Of a DNA stretch of 64,000 bases, positions 51,711 through 61,933 are shown in pieces. The stretch lies in contig JAFQZN010000022.1 of NCBI GenBank assembly GCA_017405865.1, forward strand, positions 78,028 to 142,027, in the 5' to 3' direction. This DNA comes from Oscillospiraceae bacterium. GTDB lineage: Bacteria; Bacillota; Clostridia; Oscillospirales; Oscillospiraceae. The notes beneath the pieces are model-generated. The model saw nothing but the letters and a program-made list of their open reading frames with translations. It was not told the origin of the DNA and ran no database searches. Made by a program: the position numbers and the translations under genes. The stretch's first letter is position 1; the number at the start of each line of letters is the position of its first letter.

Positions 51711-52412
51711 TTACGATACCTGCCGCAGCAGGTCGCGGCGCAGGCGCTGCATGATGCGCTTTTCCAGCCGCGAAATATACGACTGCGAAATACCCATGAG
51801 ATCGGCGACCTCCTTCTGCGTCTTTTCCTGCTGACCGGCCAATCCGAAACGCATGGAAACAATATAGCGGTCGCGCTCCGGCAGGCGCGAGAGCGCCTCG
51901 TGGAGGAGTTGATGCTCCACGTCCTCCTCCATCGGGCGCATGACGGTGTCGCCGTCCGTGCCGAGAATATCGGAAAGCAGAAGCTCGTTGCCGTCCCAGT
52001 CGGTATTGATCGGCTCGTCGAGAGAGACTTCGGTTTTCTGGCCGGATACTTTCCGTATGTGCATTAAAATCTCGTTTTCAATACAACGGGAGGCGTAAGT
52101 CGCGAGCTTGATATTCCGGTCGGCGCGGAAGGTGCCGATCGCTTTGATCAGACCGATCGTGCCGATGGAGATGAGGTCTTCAATATTGATTCCCGTGTTT
52201 TCAAAACGGCGGGCAATGTAGACGACAAGACGAAGATTCCGCTCGATCAGGCATTGCTTCGCCTGTTCGTCGCCTTCGGAAATGCACTGCAAAAGGCGCT
52301 GCTCCTCTGCAGCGGAGAGTGGCGGCGGCAGGACGTCGCTCCCTCCGATGTAGAAAACGGCCTCCGGCGGATGGAGCAGGGCGTTGATTAGCTGGGACAG
52401 TGTTTTAAGCAT
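51711..52412 (-). CDS. sigE: Sporulation sigma factor SigE precursor
   Basis: 233 residues. The N terminus is a pro-sequence of about 20 residues before [13 protein letters not shown], the usual cleavage region of pro-SigE. Then sigma region 2 ([26 protein letters not shown], in parts, [24 protein letters not shown]) and region 4 ([37 protein letters not shown]). It directs mother-cell transcription early in sporulation. It overlaps the spoIIGA gene by eight bases, the standard operon order. Confidence 0.95.
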
Positions 52413-53238
52413 ATTGATTTCCTCCTGTCAGTGCCTCATACGCGCCGCGCGCCGATACGGGCGTCGGAGAGAGCGCGATGAGGCCGGTTTTGGTTCGGTT
52501 GTTGATCGTGATTTCACAGGGGATTGCAAGGAGAAGCCCGGAGGGCACGCCGACGGCGCGGTAGGGGATCAGCCTCGGCGCATAATCCTTCAGCTTCAGA
52601 GCGAACGTCGCGGGACAGGCAATTTCCGCCTCGGAAAGTGTGCAGGGGAAAAGACCGCGCACGGCCCGCCAGTAGACGGTCAGGACGTTCTCGCCGCTGA
52701 CCGGATCGCACAGCGTATTGCCGCTGTCGCGCAGCGCACTCAACCGGACGGTCCTGCCGCGTAGCCGCAGCGTGACAGGTAAAATGCTGTCTGCGGCGAA
52801 CGTCAGCTTCGGCAACAGCAGACGGCAGGCTGCACTGACGGCTGCGGCGGTCAGCAGGAGGGAGAAGAAGCTGACGGGATAGAAGAGCGCGTTTTCACGG
52901 TAGTGCAATTGACCTCCCCTCAAAAGCTCCACGCCGTAGACCGCGCCGCACAGCACCAGCGTCATTCCGCCGAAGACTGCCGCAAGCCGGAACGTCGAGC
53001 GCCGCCATCCGAAGGAAAGGACGATCATTCCGGCTGCGCACAATACCTTGCAGGGGAAAAGGGTCATCCATCGCAAACCAGGCAGATAAACCGCGACTGC
53101 GTAGGCCGCACCGAGCAGCGCGCCGAGCAGCAGCCGCCGTGTTCGGATCGCCGCGCCGCCGAGCCGCGCGCTCGCGCGCAGGAGCAGATAGTTGACGGAA
53201 AAGTTCAGTACGAAAACGGCGTCTGCGTAAACAGTCAA
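52405..53238 (-). CDS. spoIIGA: Sigma-E processing peptidase SpoIIGA
   Basis: 277 residues. About five membrane helices fill the N-terminal half ([19 protein letters not shown]...), and the C-terminal half holds the aspartic-protease motif [20 protein letters not shown]. SpoIIGA sits in the septal membrane and cleaves the SigE pro-sequence after a forespore signal. The likely start is TTG 53238, six bases after AGAGGTG; ATG 53244 is in frame but almost on the ribosome site. Confidence 0.92.
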
Positions 53239-53278
53239 GCGCATCACCTCTGTGGACAAAGCATAGCGCCGTGAACGC

Positions 53279-53319
53279 AAAAAACAGGTCGCAATCCCCA
53301 ACGGGGAATGCGGCCTGTT
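53279..53319 (-). terminator. Terminator after the DUF951 gene
   Basis: A stem between 53283-53299 and 53303-53319 (ACAGG...CCTGT, CCCC/GGGG) with a three-base loop; on the minus strand a run of T follows (plus-strand A-run at 53279-53284). It closes the leftward operon that begins at 59698. Confidence 0.75.
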
Positions 53320-57115: not shown

Positions 57116-59698
57116 TTATGTTTCTTTCTCTGTGAGTTTTCGCAGGGGATTATCGCGGATGGAGGCGCGCTTTGCCTCCTCGCGCAGTTGACGGATGACG
57201 GCGGCGATCTTTTCGTTGACCTGCTCGATCTCGCCCAGAAGCTCGCTTGCGGAGATGCGCAGCACACCGCTGCGCAGGGCGGAGAGCTGGATCAGCGCGT
57301 CCGAGGTCGCCACACGGACGGCGTAGTTTTTGCCGATTTTGCCTACCAGCGTTTCAATATAGAGGTCGGCGCTTTCGTTCTCTTTGGTATAGACGACGCG
57401 CAGGTTGTCGTGCTTCGTCTTCGAGCCGACGCCGCCCTTGACGCGATAGCTGTCAAAGACGACGACTAACTCGCACGGCCGGTAGCCGCAGTAGTTGCTC
57501 AAGATATCCAGAAGACGCTCTCTTGCGCCTGGCAGGTCGCTTTGCGCCTGCTCACGCAGCCCGTCCCACGCGAAAATCATATTGTAGCCGTCGACGATCA
57601 GATAGTCCTTTTTGCGCGGCGGCAGGGTGATCTCCGAGGCCTCGGCCTTGGGCGGCGGACGGTGAAGCACGTATTTTTCCGGCCCGAATTCACGCTCCAT
57701 GATCCGCTGCAGCTCTTTCTCATCCAGATCCAGATTCTGCGTTCTGACCTGTACGGGCGCGTCCTCGCGCTTCGGGCGGAGAACGCTGTCGAGATGCATA
57801 TGCTCAAAGACCTGATTCCATTTGACGGTAAATCCGCCGCCGTGCGCGCAGAAGACGGAGTCGGGCGTGTTTTCCAAGTCACGCTCGGGATCGTAGGCAG
57901 CTGCCTCGATGACCTGATCTGCGTTGTGGCACGGCGCATAGCCGTCTGCCTCGCACAGCAGCCTGCCGCGCCCCTTCGTGTAGGACACGACCTGCGCCAT
58001 ATAGTCCTGCAGCTCCGAAACCGGCGCTCTGCCGGTCAGTCGCATTCCATCCTCAACTTCGGCGGGAGGCTCAAAAGAACCGCCCATGGCGCGGATATCA
58101 TTGATCGCCCGCCCAATCTGATCGGCTGGAACGCTCAGCGTGAATTTGTAAAACGGCTCGAGCAGCACGCTTTCCGCCTGCATGAGCCCCTGACGGACGG
58201 CGCGGTAGGTCGCCTGGCGGAAGTCGCCTCCCTCTGTGTGCTTCAGATGGGCGCGGCCTGCAGACAGCGTGATCTTCATATCGGTGATCGGAAAACCAGC
58301 CAGTACGCCGAGGTGCTGCTTTTCCGCAAGATGCGTGAGGATCAGCCGCTGCCAGTTGCGGTCGAGCGAATCCTCGCTGCAGGCCGACGCAAAGACCAGT
58401 CCACTGCCCTGCGGCAGCGGCTCCAGCAGCAGATGCACCTCCGCATAGTGGCGCAGCGGCTCAAAGTGTCCGACGCCCTCGACGGTGCTGCGGATCGTTT
58501 CGCGGTAGCAGACACGGCCGCTGTCAATGATAACGTCCAGCTCGAAGCGCTCGCGGATCAGGCTTTGCAAAACCTCGATCTGTACCTGCCCCATGAGCTG
58601 CGCGTGGATCTCGCGCAGGCGTTCGTCCCAGACGATATGCAGCTGCGGCTCCTCGTCCTCCAGCTGCTTTAATTTCGGAAGCGCGGTGCGAGCATCCGTA
58701 TTCTGCGGAAGCCGGATGCGGTAAGTCATCACAGGCGTGAGCAGAGGGGACGCGGACTGCGGCTCGGCCCCGAGCCGATCGCCTGCTGTCAGACCGGAGA
58801 TGCCGGTCACTGCGCACAGCGTCCCGGCGGGCGCCTCCTCCGCCTGCGTGAAGTTCGCGCCGGAATACAGGCGGATCTGCGTGACTTTTTCTTCAACAGC
58901 TTGGCCGTCCTGTCCGTTATAGTGCAGCGGCATACGTACGCGCAGCGAGCCGCCGGTGACCTTCAGCCAGGCCAGACGGTTTCCCTGCGCGTCGCGGGAG
59001 ATCTTATAGACCCGCGCAGCAAACTCCGGGGGATATGAGGGCGTGAGCGTATAGCGCTCCAGCGCGCGGAGCAGCGCGTCGTCTCCCATGGCGTTGAGCG
59101 CTTCGCCGAACAGACAGGGAAAGAGCTTTTCCTGCGCGATCATAGCGGCAACCTCGTCGGGCGCAAGCGTTCCGCTTTCCAGAAAATGCTCCAGCACCGT
59201 TTCGTCGCAAAGCGCGAGCGCTTCCGTGTCGGAAAGATCGCAGCAGAAGCTGCTCAAATTTGCCTTGGCGTCGTTTAGCAGATGCTCCCGGTCCGCACCG
59301 GGGAGATCCATTTTGTTGAAAAACAGAAAGGTCGGGATATGATAGCGGCGCAGGAGCTTCCAAATCGTCTGCGTATGACCCTGTACGCCGTCCGTGGCGC
59401 TGATAAGCAGGATCGCGTAGTCGAGCACCTGCATCGCTCGCTCCGCCTCGGGAGAAAAGTCCACGTGACCGGGCGTATCCAAAAGCGTCACGGCAAGCTC
59501 CTCTGTTTGAAAGCGCGCCTGCTTGGAGAAGATCGTAATGCCGCGGCTTCGCTCCAGAGCGAAGTGATCCAGAAAGGCGTCGCCGTGGTCGACCCGACCG
59601 AGCTTTTTCAGTTGTCCGGTGCGGTAGAGCAGGGCTTCGGAGAGCGTCGTCTTGCCTGCGTCAACCTGCGCGAAGATACCGACGGCTAATTCTTTCAT
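57116..59698 (-). CDS. Tet(M)-like translational GTPase fused to Rae1/YacP-type endonuclease
   Basis: 860 residues. Residues 1-~650 follow the EF-G/ribosomal-protection plan: G1 AQVDAGKTTL (Gln where Tet(M) has His), G2 region RSRGITIF, G3 DTPGHVDF, G4 NKMD, then domains II-V. Residues ~697-850 are a NYN/PIN nuclease very like Rae1 (YacP): IVDGYNMIFAW with Asp703, VVFDSYRVKGG, VVYTKENESADLYIE and VATSDALIQ...ASELL. Rae1 cuts mRNA in the ribosomal A site in Bacillus subtilis. A fused GTPase would bring the nuclease to the ribosome. It starts a leftward operon; the ATG has a weak upstream site. Confidence 0.88.
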   Translation of the reverse strand: MKELAVGIFAQVDAGKTTLSEALLYRTGQLKKLGRVDHGDAFLDHFALERSRGITIFSKQARFQTEELAVTLLDTPGHVDFSPEAERAMQVLDYAILLISATDGVQGHTQTIWKLLRRYHIPTFLFFNKMDLPGADREHLLNDAKANLSSFCCDLSDTEALALCDETVLEHFLESGTLAPDEVAAMIAQEKLFPCLFGEALNAMGDDALLRALERYTLTPSYPPEFAARVYKISRDAQGNRLAWLKVTGGSLRVRMPLHYNGQDGQAVEEKVTQIRLYSGANFTQAEEAPAGTLCAVTGISGLTAGDRLGAEPQSASPLLTPVMTYRIRLPQNTDARTALPKLKQLEDEEPQLHIVWDERLREIHAQLMGQVQIEVLQSLIRERFELDVIIDSGRVCYRETIRSTVEGVGHFEPLRHYAEVHLLLEPLPQGSGLVFASACSEDSLDRNWQRLILTHLAEKQHLGVLAGFPITDMKITLSAGRAHLKHTEGGDFRQATYRAVRQGLMQAESVLLEPFYKFTLSVPADQIGRAINDIRAMGGSFEPPAEVEDGMRLTGRAPVSELQDYMAQVVSYTKGRGRLLCEADGYAPCHNADQVIEAAAYDPERDLENTPDSVFCAHGGGFTVKWNQVFEHMHLDSVLRPKREDAPVQVRTQNLDLDEKELQRIMEREFGPEKYVLHRPPPKAEASEITLPPRKKDYLIVDGYNMIFAWDGLREQAQSDLPGARERLLDILSNYCGYRPCELVVVFDSYRVKGGVGSKTKHDNLRVVYTKENESADLYIETLVGKIGKNYAVRVATSDALIQLSALRSGVLRISASELLGEIEQVNEKIAAVIRQLREEAKRASIRDNPLRKLTEKET

Positions 59699-59771: not shown

Positions 59772-60857
59772 ATGTTTCAATTGAGAAAATACTGCCCGCC
59801 CGATTTTTCCGCGCCGGAATTCCGCAACGCGCCGAACGTCGTTCTGGAGCCTGCGCCGATGGACGGCGTCGCGCCGATGACCTACCATGCCATGAGCATT
59901 TTCCCGGAATACTTCAAGGTCGACGGGCAGTGGCTCCTTGCGGAGGAAAGCCGTATGGACTGCGTGGCGGTCTATGAAAACGGAAAGATCGTCGTCCGCG
60001 AGTTCCGCCTGCTCAAAAAGGGCGACCTCGTTGTGACCGGCCGCACGGAAAAGTGCGAGGACGGCATCTACGTTCATCCGAACGGCTTCATGGAAAAAGC
60101 GGAGGAGAAGGACGTGTTTGCCTTCCGCCAGAACCGCTCCAGAGAGACGGCGTTCTCCCGCGATTACGACGAGATCTATGAGCTGCTCAGGCATGAGCGC
60201 GACCACGGCAAAATCGTCTGGGTCATGGGCCCTGCCTTCGCCTTTGACGCCGACGCGAGATGCGCCATGTCGAAGCTGATCGAAAACGGCTATGTTCACG
60301 CAATCCTTGCGGGCAACGCACTGGCGACCCACGATCTGGAGGGTGCGTATCTCAAGACCGCGCTCGGACAGGACATCTATACCCAGCAGTCCGTGCCGAA
60401 CGGACACTATAATCATCTGGACCTGATCAACCGCGTGAAATATCACGGCAGCATCAGAAAGTTCATCGAGGAAGAGAAGATCGACAACGGCATCATCTAC
60501 AGCTGCGAGAAGTGCGGCGTACCGTACGTTCTCGGCGGCTCGATCCGCGACGACGGCCCTCTGCCTCCGGTCTACGGCAACGTCTATGCCGCGCAGGACG
60601 CCATGCGGAACGAAATTCGCGGCGCGACCACGGTGATCGCCATGGCGACGATGCTGCATACCATCGCGACCGGCAATATGACCCCGTCGTACCGCGTGAT
60701 GCCGGACGGCACCGTGCGGCAGATCTATTTCTACTGCGTGGACGTGTCGGAATTCGTCGTCAACAAGCTCGCCGACCGCGGCAGCCTTTCCGCGCGCGGC
60801 ATCGTGACCAATGTGCAGGACTTCGTCGTGAACCTGCAAAAGGGACTCGGACTGTAA
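59772..60857 (+). CDS. LOR/SDH-domain ornithine cyclodeaminase-like protein (TIGR00300 type)
   Basis: 361 residues. The second half matches the LOR/SDH conserved region found in archaeal ornithine cyclodeaminase and the C-terminal part of cyanobacterial ArgZ/AgrE: AILAGNALATHDLEGAYLKT, VPNGHYNHLDLINRVK, GIIYSCEKCGVPYVLGGSIRDDG in parts and GNVYAAQDAMR. Those enzymes convert ornithine to proline and ammonia with NAD. The first ~120 residues are the small N-terminal domain of the same family. ATG 59772 has AGGAG upstream; an earlier in-frame ATG overlaps the promoter. It is a single-gene unit. Confidence 0.8.
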   Translation: MFQLRKYCPPDFSAPEFRNAPNVVLEPAPMDGVAPMTYHAMSIFPEYFKVDGQWLLAEESRMDCVAVYENGKIVVREFRLLKKGDLVVTGRTEKCEDGIYVHPNGFMEKAEEKDVFAFRQNRSRETAFSRDYDEIYELLRHERDHGKIVWVMGPAFAFDADARCAMSKLIENGYVHAILAGNALATHDLEGAYLKTALGQDIYTQQSVPNGHYNHLDLINRVKYHGSIRKFIEEEKIDNGIIYSCEKCGVPYVLGGSIRDDGPLPPVYGNVYAAQDAMRNEIRGATTVIAMATMLHTIATGNMTPSYRVMPDGTVRQIYFYCVDVSEFVVNKLADRGSLSARGIVTNVQDFVVNLQKGLGL

Positions 60858-60858
60858 A

Positions 60859-61254
60859 TTATTTTTCCGGCGACGCTGCAGCTGCTGCAGCGTCGCTTTT
60901 CTCTGCTTTTTTCGCGGCGAGCCTGTCCTTGAACTGGGCGACCAGCGGGGTCAGACTCTCCACAATGCTCTTTTTGCCTGCGTCCTCGGCGACGTGCAGG
61001 ATCTGCACCTCCGAGCCGCTGACAGCGAGAAAGGAGAGCGGCGTTTTCGTGACCTTCACGCCGGCGCCCGCCGCGACGCCGTCCGGATTTTTGAGCAGGT
61101 CGGAGCCGCCGCCTGCAAAGCCGCAGGAGAGCTTGGAAACGGGGATGACCGTCACGCCGTCGAGCACGATCGGCGCGTCCGTGACGGATTGACCGGCAGA
61201 CAGCGTTTTTGCCTGCTGCGCAGTGAATTCCAAAACTTTCATTATCTGGCTCAT
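60859..61254 (-). CDS. gerW: Spore protein GerW (YtfJ family)
   Basis: 131 residues with the GerW core VIPVSKLSCGFAGGGSD, GVKVTKTPLSFLAVSG and a basic coiled segment before an Ala-rich tail (DAAAAAASPEK). In Bacillus subtilis GerW is made in the forespore and is needed for some germination responses. The start is ATG 61254. It lies 10 bases after the DUF2953 gene, the conserved ytfI-ytfJ order, and its stop is one base past the convergent gene's end. Confidence 0.9.
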   Translation of the reverse strand: MSQIMKVLEFTAQQAKTLSAGQSVTDAPIVLDGVTVIPVSKLSCGFAGGGSDLLKNPDGVAAGAGVKVTKTPLSFLAVSGSEVQILHVAEDAGKKSIVESLTPLVAQFKDRLAAKKAEKSDAAAAAASPEK

Positions 61255-61264
61255 TTGCTGTACC

Positions 61265-61933
61265 TCACTTTTTTGCACTCTGCCTGATATAACGCCCGAT
61301 CAGCCAGAACAGAAAGCTGACGATATGGACCGGACGGTAGTTGAGCTGCCCGTCAAAGACGGCAGCAATGTCCTCTCGCTCAAAATCGCAGCCGATGTCG
61401 ACGCTGCGTTTTTTGAATTTCATTGTTCTGTCCAGCAGGGTCAGAAGGGGATAGACCGCAGCGCAGACCTCGCCGTAGCGGAAGGCCGCGTCGGCAGCGT
61501 CTGCGTCGCCGACGGTGATTTTCAGATCAAAGCGCTTGAAGACGCTTCGTCTGACCAGCCTGCCGATGCGCGAAAACAGCGCGCCGACGGCGGCGGCAAC
61601 GCCGCGGAAGGCTTCAATCAGTCCCTTGCTGTCAACAGCGCGCCGGAAATTCAGCTTGCTGCTGACGTCCTGCAGACCGAGCAGATCGAGCAGCTTTTCG
61701 ACCGCTTTGCCGTCGCTTTCCTTCTTCTTTCCGGCAGACGGTTTCTTTTTGGCAGGCTTCTTTGGCTGCTTCGGCTTCGGCTCCTTCGTACTGTCGACAA
61801 GGGTCAGAAACAGGTATTTGACCCGGTAACAAAAGCCCGACTCCGGCGCATAGTGCAGATAGATCCGCAGGGGGAGCAGCAGCGGCAGCGTGATCAGCGC
61901 AAGGATCGCAAGTATGATATATAACGCGGGCAT
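61265..61933 (-). CDS. DUF2953 membrane protein (YtfI-like)
   Basis: 222 residues. One N-terminal membrane helix (~3-22), a Lys/Pro-rich stretch (KEPKPKQPKKPAKKKP), and a soluble domain containing FKRFDLKITVGDADAADAAF and the DIGCDFEREDI region of DUF2953. It pairs with gerW in spore formers, so a sporulation role is likely. The first base of its ATG is 61933, with GGAGG-like sequence upstream. Confidence 0.85.
   Translation of the reverse strand: MPALYIILAILALITLPLLLPLRIYLHYAPESGFCYRVKYLFLTLVDSTKEPKPKQPKKPAKKKPSAGKKKESDGKAVEKLLDLLGLQDVSSKLNFRRAVDSKGLIEAFRGVAAAVGALFSRIGRLVRRSVFKRFDLKITVGDADAADAAFRYGEVCAAVYPLLTLLDRTMKFKKRSVDIGCDFEREDIAAVFDGQLNYRPVHIVSFLFWLIGRYIRQSAKK

Follow-up and report, generated by a model that had tools for sequence, protein, structure and literature searches.

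A clostridial fusion of an EF-G-like GTPase with a Rae1-type nuclease, possibly a ribosome-targeted form of Rae1

The fused gene and its two active sites

A 64,000-nucleotide stretch of an Oscillospiraceae genome (GenBank assembly GCA_017405865.1, contig JAFQZN010000022.1, forward-strand positions 78,028 to 142,027; hereafter the window) encodes a protein in which a translational GTPase resembling elongation factor G (EF-G) is joined to a NYN nuclease domain of the YacP/Rae1 type. The gene occupies positions 57116-59698 of the reverse strand as a single open reading frame (ORF) with an ATG start and a product of 860 amino acids (aa), and its host is a gut-type bacterium. An earlier sequence-only reading of the window had proposed a fusion with these boundaries and had named motifs in each half; both the ORF and its Pfam matches bear this out. 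Along the chain, a five-domain EF-G-like GTPase is followed by a conserved C-terminal extension, a variable linker, and the NYN domain (Table 1). By sequence comparison, the closest PDB match to residues 1-588 is TetM (3j9y, 6e-71), and the closest to residues 698-845 is YacP (5mq9/5mq8, 1.8e-22).

Judged by their conserved residues, both halves look active. Complete GTPase motifs with an intact DTPGH had been claimed, and across 91 fused homologues residues D13, G15, K16, T17, T18, H78, K129, and D131 are invariant; residue 14 varies between Ala (70) and Ser (21), and residue 128, with the window protein included, between Asn (87 of 92) and Thr (the other five). An alignment of the nuclease half, proposed earlier as the means to refute the NYN assignment, finds the catalytic acids D703, D749, D778, and D800, and E782 as well, in all 91 fused proteins and in all 24 free NYN proteins compared. 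Positions 709 and 751 are Phe or Tyr and Tyr, respectively, in the fused proteins, and mostly Asn and His in the free ones. The Gln in motif G1, which had been taken to set the protein apart from classical Tet proteins, has to be given up as a family mark. The usual residue at position 11 is His (86 of 91 fused and 19 of 20 unfused homologues), and Gln is found only in the window protein and five close relatives; it is a local variant.

The extension that follows domain V is strongly conserved, with C590, C617, W627, and H635 found in 90, 91, 89, and 91 of the 91 fused proteins, and in the 20 aligned unfused members of the family a further 2-13 residues complete the chain. The distance from H635 to the NYN domain is 61-150 aa (median 77.5 in 92 fused proteins). 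The linker has 22% hydrophobic residues, compared with 33% in the GTPase part, and is probably disordered. Within it, a short motif of approximate form [EA]-[LIV]-x-x-[IV]-[FILMYH] occurs in all 92 linkers, whereas shuffled sequences give 2.25, a comparison that overstates the motif because the final pattern was drawn after inspection; earlier, stricter patterns matched 28 and then 52 of the 92. Residues E662 and I666 are each kept in 88 of 91 fused proteins, and the 20 unfused proteins end upstream of the motif.

Table 1. Positions in the window of the fused gene and of the domains, segments, and residues of its product.
Feature	Positions	Strand	Basis
Fused gene, translational GTPase + YacP/Rae1-type NYN nuclease, 860 aa	57116..59698	-	ORF + Pfam
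G domain, residues 5-216 (AQVDAGKTT, RGITI, DTPGH, NKMD)	59051..59686	-	Pfam GTP_EFTU, 7.5e-47
EF-G domain II, residues 226-309	58772..59023	-	Pfam EF-G_D2
EF-G domain III, residues 321-391	58526..58738	-	Pfam EFG_III, 23.8 bits, under cut-off 27
EF-G domain IV, residues 394-508; counterpart in TetM enters decoding site	58175..58519	-	Pfam EFG_IV
Domain IV tip segment, residues 408-421, G-x-G-H-[FY]-E-P-L-[RK]-H-Y	58436..58477	-	Alignment
Domain IV loop III, residues 481-494, G-R-A-H-x-K-H-T-E-G-G-D-F-R (Tet: G-L-Y-Y-S-P-V-S-T-P-A-D-F-R)	58217..58258	-	Alignment
EF-G domain V, residues 511-593	57920..58168	-	Pfam EFG_C
GTPase C-terminal extension, residues 590-641	57776..57931	-	Alignment of 91 fused + 20 unfused
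Linker, residues 642-697	57608..57775	-	Comparison of 92 fused proteins
Short conserved linker motif, about residues 658-674	57677..57727	-	Alignment + pattern count
NYN_YacP nuclease domain, residues 700-847	57158..57601	-	Pfam, 1.6e-41, 142.5 bits, cut-off 24.6; YacP structure match by sequence
NYN acid D703 (VDGYN)	57590..57592	-	91/91 fused, 24/24 free
NYN acid D749 (VFDSY)	57452..57454	-	91/91 fused, 24/24 free
NYN acid D778 (ESAD)	57365..57367	-	91/91 fused, 24/24 free
NYN acid D800 (TSD)	57299..57301	-	91/91 fused, 24/24 free

A GTPase subfamily outside the Tet proteins

The sequence-only reading called the first half a Tet(M)-type GTPase, of which the fold stands and the Tet class does not. 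The curated model for Tet protection proteins gives the window protein 415.5 bits against a cut-off of 775, and scores three of its relatives at 378-439 bits and a Tet(M) control at 877. In a GTPase tree of 89 rows, fused and unfused proteins form one clade, with SH-like approximate likelihood ratio test (SH-aLRT) support of 100, apart from TetM, TetW, TetO, and TetS (TetQ, OtrA, and others are absent from the tree). Inside this clade, 51 fused rows group with one unfused protein, L155, from a Ligilactobacillus salivarius plasmid (SH-aLRT 99). Because the tree comes from a quick search without a mixture model and has a long EF-G outgroup branch, its deep branching order is unsure. It took 46 of the 91 fused rows, or 50 with L153, L169, L170, and L171, plus the window protein; alignment A1 held 51 relatives, namely 50 fused proteins and the unfused Sporosarcina protein L065. 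L030, at a contig end, was excluded from the unfused set, and the partial L045, L060, L062, L064, and L072 from the fused set.

Like Tet(M) and Tet(O), to which the window protein is about 30% identical, the family has five EF-G-like domains and intact GTPase motifs; it differs from them in its tip loops and C-terminal extension as well as in model score and clade. One tip loop of domain IV reads GxGH[FY]EPL[RK]HY, and the other, loop III, reads AHxKHTEGGDFR. In loop III the window protein has GRAHLKHTEGGDFR where Tet proteins have SP[VA]STPADFR, a motif common to TetM, TetW, TetO, TetS, and a TetB(P)-type protein and absent from the present family. In the first tip segment, G408, G410, H411, E413, P414, L415, and H417 are each found in 91 of 91 fused proteins, and the divergent member L170 departs from the pattern. 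Loop III positions are kept in 88-91 of the 91, except R482 (73) and L485 (42), and most are kept in 18-20 of the 20 unfused proteins, where A483 (14) and E489 (9) are the weaker columns. The strict loop III pattern matches 67 of the 82 family rows in the tree set, and GGDFR alone matches 80; the fifteen misses of the strict pattern are eleven Bacilli proteins, three fused proteins (L036, L169, L170), and one clostridial unfused protein (L148). Loop III aligns with TetM free of gaps, and H484 falls on a tip histidine of EF-G, which we take to be H583 of the Escherichia coli protein, where TetM has Tyr. Two distant, Tet-like proteins from the class sample described below (G130, G236) also have the tip histidine, and also lack the SP motif.

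In TetM, Pro509 of this loop overlaps the drug (PMC8161019, PMC7456112; these and the papers named below are cited from parts of their text). TetM with S508A, P509A, and V510A can stay active (PMC4750697), and the loop III difference therefore lowers the case for drug protection without deciding it. Membership in the Tet family is rejected on the model score, the separate clade, and the tip loops together. TetB(P) was also considered as nearest relative and rejected, since the TetB(P)-type protein is nearer to G130 (41%), TetO, and TetM than to the present family (30-35%). The GTPase half is a subfamily of its own, related to the Tet proteins and outside them.

Occurrence of the fusion, of free Rae1, and of the unfused GTPase

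One scan of a genome collection returned 66 loci, 59 of which are fused past query residue 800; the rest are six partial loci (L030, L045, L060, L062, L064, L072) and the unfused locus L065. An even draw of 293 genomes from the window's class, with GTPase matches taken at E values up to 1e-90, gave an NYN_YacP match in 192 genomes and a match to the GTPase part in 125. GTPase frames no shorter than 780 aa are present in 99 of the 293, and all 99 have an NYN match; 83 NYN rows had a listed frame of that length, and the remainder were checked by locus or individually. Among these, G062 and G190 carry the NYN part in a different open frame, as a break in the frame would leave it, and G071 matches over 75 of 166 NYN positions. 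In five more genomes (G235, G044, G172, G156, G185), the fusion seems to have been interrupted by a contig end or a frame break, bringing the fused total to 104 of 293. Nearly all carriers have a single copy. Broken copies with stops or frame breaks, fused or unfused, were seen in G062, G190 (L152), G235, and G044 and as a second copy in G106 (L172). Chance joining or an assembly artefact was rejected as the source of the fusion, because long fusions recur across loci and genomes.

An unfused GTPase of 624-729 aa was found in 19 of the 293 genomes, 13 with a separate NYN protein and six without any NYN match. Another 74 genomes have an NYN match but no GTPase match; 45 of these had listed frames of 168-216 aa. 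The idea that the other 29 might carry NYN fused to some other protein was rejected, as 27 of them have frames of 160-197 aa. The last two are a free NYN protein whose 342-aa frame includes a charged tail and adjoins an ORF named by eye as RlmB-like, and a 27-aa fragment at a contig end that falls under the cut-off. Within the window's family, 39 of 61 genomes match, 37 at a single place reaching query residue 776 or beyond (four of these with an internal stop), one over two contigs, and one unfused; another family gave matches in 20 of 24 genomes. A sample of 200 genomes from the class Bacilli yielded 35 matches at E values up to 1e-60, of which 20 are unfused GTPases (449-615 bits, 650-705 aa); the others are distant, at no more than 242 bits, and every frame matched in this sample is too short for the fusion.

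The survey of fused homologues and free Rae1 that the sequence-only reading had proposed finds the fusion recurrent and separate Rae1 nearly excluded from its carriers. A second NYN match above the cut-off occurs in one of the 104 fused genomes (G284, 174 aa), and three others (G120, G174, G208) have a second match of only 49 positions and 21 bits, under the cut-off. By comparison, a separate NYN protein is present in 87 of the 189 other class genomes (Fisher's exact test, 1.3e-19, with kinship among genomes ignored). In the window's genome, whose assembly is 92% complete, the sole NYN_YacP match is the fusion and no separate Rae1 was seen. The NYN domain likewise lies solely within the fusion in all seven fused genomes reached via titled records, and one Sporosarcina genome, with an unfused GTPase, has a free NYN protein.

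Bacillus subtilis Rae1/YacP (5mq8, 5mq9) shares with the nuclease half the four acids and the VDGYN, TKENE, and TSD segments, and it differs in setting and in tail. The free form is about 160-216 aa long (with the one longer frame), mostly near rlmB, and tailed; in the window the domain is fused and away from rlmB, and its tail is changed. At 20 of 25 loci, the 2-3.5 kb stretch that contains free Rae1 also has an rlmB match, which is missing from the other five. In the window's genome, rlmB is followed 3 nucleotides on by a 661-aa ORF that is membrane-like by eye. This stretch (L192, 2165-7151) continues with an EF-G-like ORF whose G motifs are altered (GHGGDGKSALC, DNPGY). A C-terminal tail of form L-[EDQ]-x-x-R is found in 24 of 24 free Rae1 proteins; in the 91 fused proteins, Leu and Arg are both kept in four, Arg in 20, and 53 have a gap at the Arg column. 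The B. subtilis substitution R166P is counted as loss of function (PMC6613710), and by its residue number, rather than by alignment, R166 appears to lie in this tail. An NYN tree of 46 of the 91 fused rows and the window protein requires two changes between free and fused labels, with weak support overall. In the simplest history, the NYN domain became joined to a ribosome-docking GTPase in a clostridial ancestor, the free gene was lost, and the tail decayed. Fusion would be favoured over fission as the direction because unfused members occur in both Clostridia and Bacilli.

The unfused GTPases, such as the Sporosarcina protein, fall in the same clade as the fused ones and have most tip-loop residues in common with them; they stop near residue 641 of the window protein and have no NYN domain. 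An unfused relative by sequence, not itself in the tree, is carried by plasmid pMP118 of L. salivarius UCC118 (L225, 2384-4902), where it is annotated as tetracycline resistance and stands beside rpsN (S14) and a putative metal homeostasis gene. No leftover NYN sequence was visible by eye behind the L. salivarius plasmid gene, where no dedicated search was made. The tetracycline phenotype of L. salivarius was considered as a clue and is uninformative, as the strain also has tet(M) and tet(L) (PMC12502609). Some degree of match to the GTPase part is present in 44 Ligilactobacillus plasmid records, and among the best 25 plasmid rows for the Sporosarcina protein 21 are from L. salivarius and the rest from Paenibacillus, Subdoligranulum, Monoglobus, and Agathobacter, the last two with fused genes.

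Labels in the databases vary. Two annotated unfused proteins are labelled as TetM/TetW/TetO/TetS family and one L. salivarius row as "translation factor GTPase family protein", a name also given to one fused protein. That some clostridial fusions are annotated merely as tetracycline resistance, as had been supposed, holds for at least one: a 933-aa protein with an NYN_YacP domain on an Agathobacter rectalis plasmid (L224, 2971-5772) carries solely a TetM/TetW/TetO/TetS tetracycline resistance annotation. With at least one fused and several unfused proteins labelled in this way, resistance genes in gut metagenomes could be overcounted. Members of the family also turn up in two human faecal records titled "Bacteriophage sp.", L156 (MT835563.1) and H42 (MT835514.1), with L156 a full-length fusion in a record marked UNVERIFIED; both may be bacterial DNA rather than phage cargo.

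Proposed function and alternatives

Rae1 cuts messenger RNA (mRNA) in the ribosomal A site (PMC6613710, PMC12320835), and the domain IV of Tet proteins reaches the tetracycline site in the A site (PMC8161019, PMC7456112). Our tentative interpretation, which we hold at somewhat short of even odds, is that the fusion is a clostridial form of this A-site endonuclease, with a GTPase from a separate subfamily now doing the targeting, and that it cuts mRNA on ribosomes whose A site is accessible. The distribution of the fusion among genomes speaks more for a Rae1 directed to the ribosome than for a gene of drug resistance. With the GTPase bound at the factor site, its domain IV would extend to the decoding centre; the GTPase would dock on ribosomes whose A site is left open, stalled or slow, with stalling as a possible trigger. 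GTP hydrolysis might then drive the GTPase out, and the NYN nuclease, tethered by a linker of about 60-150 residues, could reach the vacated A site and cut the mRNA, leaving a truncated complex for rescue by transfer-messenger RNA (tmRNA). A tmRNA is present in the window's genome (160 bits). The GTPase would in this way take the place of the C-terminal tail of free Rae1, which may have a role in targeting. Because domain IV and the NYN domain could hardly share the A site, delivery would be sequential, or the cut would fall elsewhere on the mRNA path.

A more specific form of this proposal, which we regard as doubtful, is a GTP-gated, ribosome-activated mRNA nuclease in which the domain IV tip senses the open A site and GTP hydrolysis hands that site to the tethered Rae1. 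Were it true, a large group of Clostridia would have turned Rae1 from a free into a factor-delivered nuclease, and the GTPase that stands unfused in other Clostridia and in Bacilli might work with free Rae1 as a partner or license it. We know of no account of how free Rae1 reaches the A site or chooses its ribosomes, and a natural fusion to a ribosome-docking GTPase, mostly in bacteria without a separate Rae1, is a ready-made test system.

Several observations weigh against a factor-delivered Rae1. The fused gene is dispensable, since 22 of 61 genomes in the window's family show no match. The GTPase occurs without the nuclease fused to it in 19 of 293 class genomes and 20 of 200 Bacilli genomes, and therefore has its own job, which may be unrelated to mRNA cleavage. 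Where it is unfused, its association with a separate NYN protein is weak (13 of 19 genomes, compared with 74 of the 170 that have neither form of the GTPase; p 0.05). Blautia-type fusions retain a Rae1-like tail. The genes around the fusion give no functional hint, the largest cluster of neighbours being found at 9 of 59 loci in scattered positions. Among the literature matches listed, PMC4342817 is the only paper found to mention the fusion, and no functional test was found in the parts of the literature covered.

An unlikely alternative is antibiotic target protection, in which the GTPase would drive out a drug bound at the A site, tetracycline or another, and the NYN domain would remove mRNA from the ribosomes that the drug has stalled. 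TetM is the best PDB match by sequence, its loop III aligns with that of the family without gaps and can tolerate loss of the SPV residues (PMC4750697), fused and unfused members are found on plasmids, the fused ones in Monoglobus and Agathobacter, and a resistance role was suggested by Atkinson 2015 (PMC4342817). Against these stand the sub-cut-off model score of 415.5 bits, the separate clade, and the absence of SP[VA]STPADFR, and further a presence in about one third of class genomes, nearly always as one copy, more in keeping with a resident gene than with an acquired gene. The gap of 73 bases to the divergent upstream neighbour (measured to a start that we chose for that gene) leaves little room for a leader of the tet(M) type, although upstream gaps reach 607 bases at other loci, which may have leaders.

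It is similarly improbable that the two halves serve independent functions, the GTPase as an EF-G-like factor in translocation, recycling, or assembly and the nuclease in maturation of ribosomal or transfer RNA. Such maturation was an early proposal for the NYN domain (cited in PMC4342817), and a widespread unfused GTPase that keeps most tip-loop residues evidently works without the nuclease. The near-exclusion of separate Rae1 suggests instead that the fusion took over the work of Rae1, which in B. subtilis is A-site mRNA cleavage, and the residues of both active sites are conserved across the fused proteins compared. Very improbable is a GTPase that holds the nuclease inactive off the ribosome, with cleavage in trans on other RNAs; the conserved motif in an otherwise variable linker could in that case dock one half on the other.

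The fused family of this analysis is very probably one reported in BMC Genomics by Atkinson 2015 (PMC4342817), who described Tet proteins from ten Clostridiales species that had acquired a YacP-like NYN RNase domain, and considered that these may act by RNase activity. Both descriptions have an EF-G-like GTPase followed by a YacP-like NYN domain on one clostridial chain, a comparison made by description rather than by sequence list. The two accounts differ in that the earlier one files the fusions under Tet, in ten species, whereas here the GTPase half falls apart from TetM, TetW, TetO, and TetS, and the fusion is found in 104 of 293 class genomes. In the parts covered, PMC8266666 names Rae1 and EF-G separately with no fusion, the tetracycline gene survey PMC7725328 has nothing on the fusion, and in PMC11780869, which names the Rae1 substrate S1025, tetM is merely a reporter. 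The architecture has been known since 2015. Additions here are the separate clade, the tip signatures, the near-exclusion of separate Rae1, the tail loss, and the linker motif, some of which other papers may hold. Condon 2018, reportedly on the distribution of Rae1, may well mention the fusion.

No conserved gene partner was found within three ORFs on each side of the 59 fused loci. In the window, an amidohydrolase gene lies about 16 bases downstream of the fused gene on the same strand, and the divergent upstream neighbour, at 59772-60857 with 59772 as our chosen start, resembles an arginine dihydrolase (ArgZ C-terminal); a homologue of it holds the same place at 5 of the 59 fused loci. The organism looks like a spore former. 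At 60859-61278, Pfam identifies a sporulation gene of the YtfJ type, and at 51711-53301 there is what we take to be a sigma-factor-like ORF next to a SpoIIGA-like ORF.

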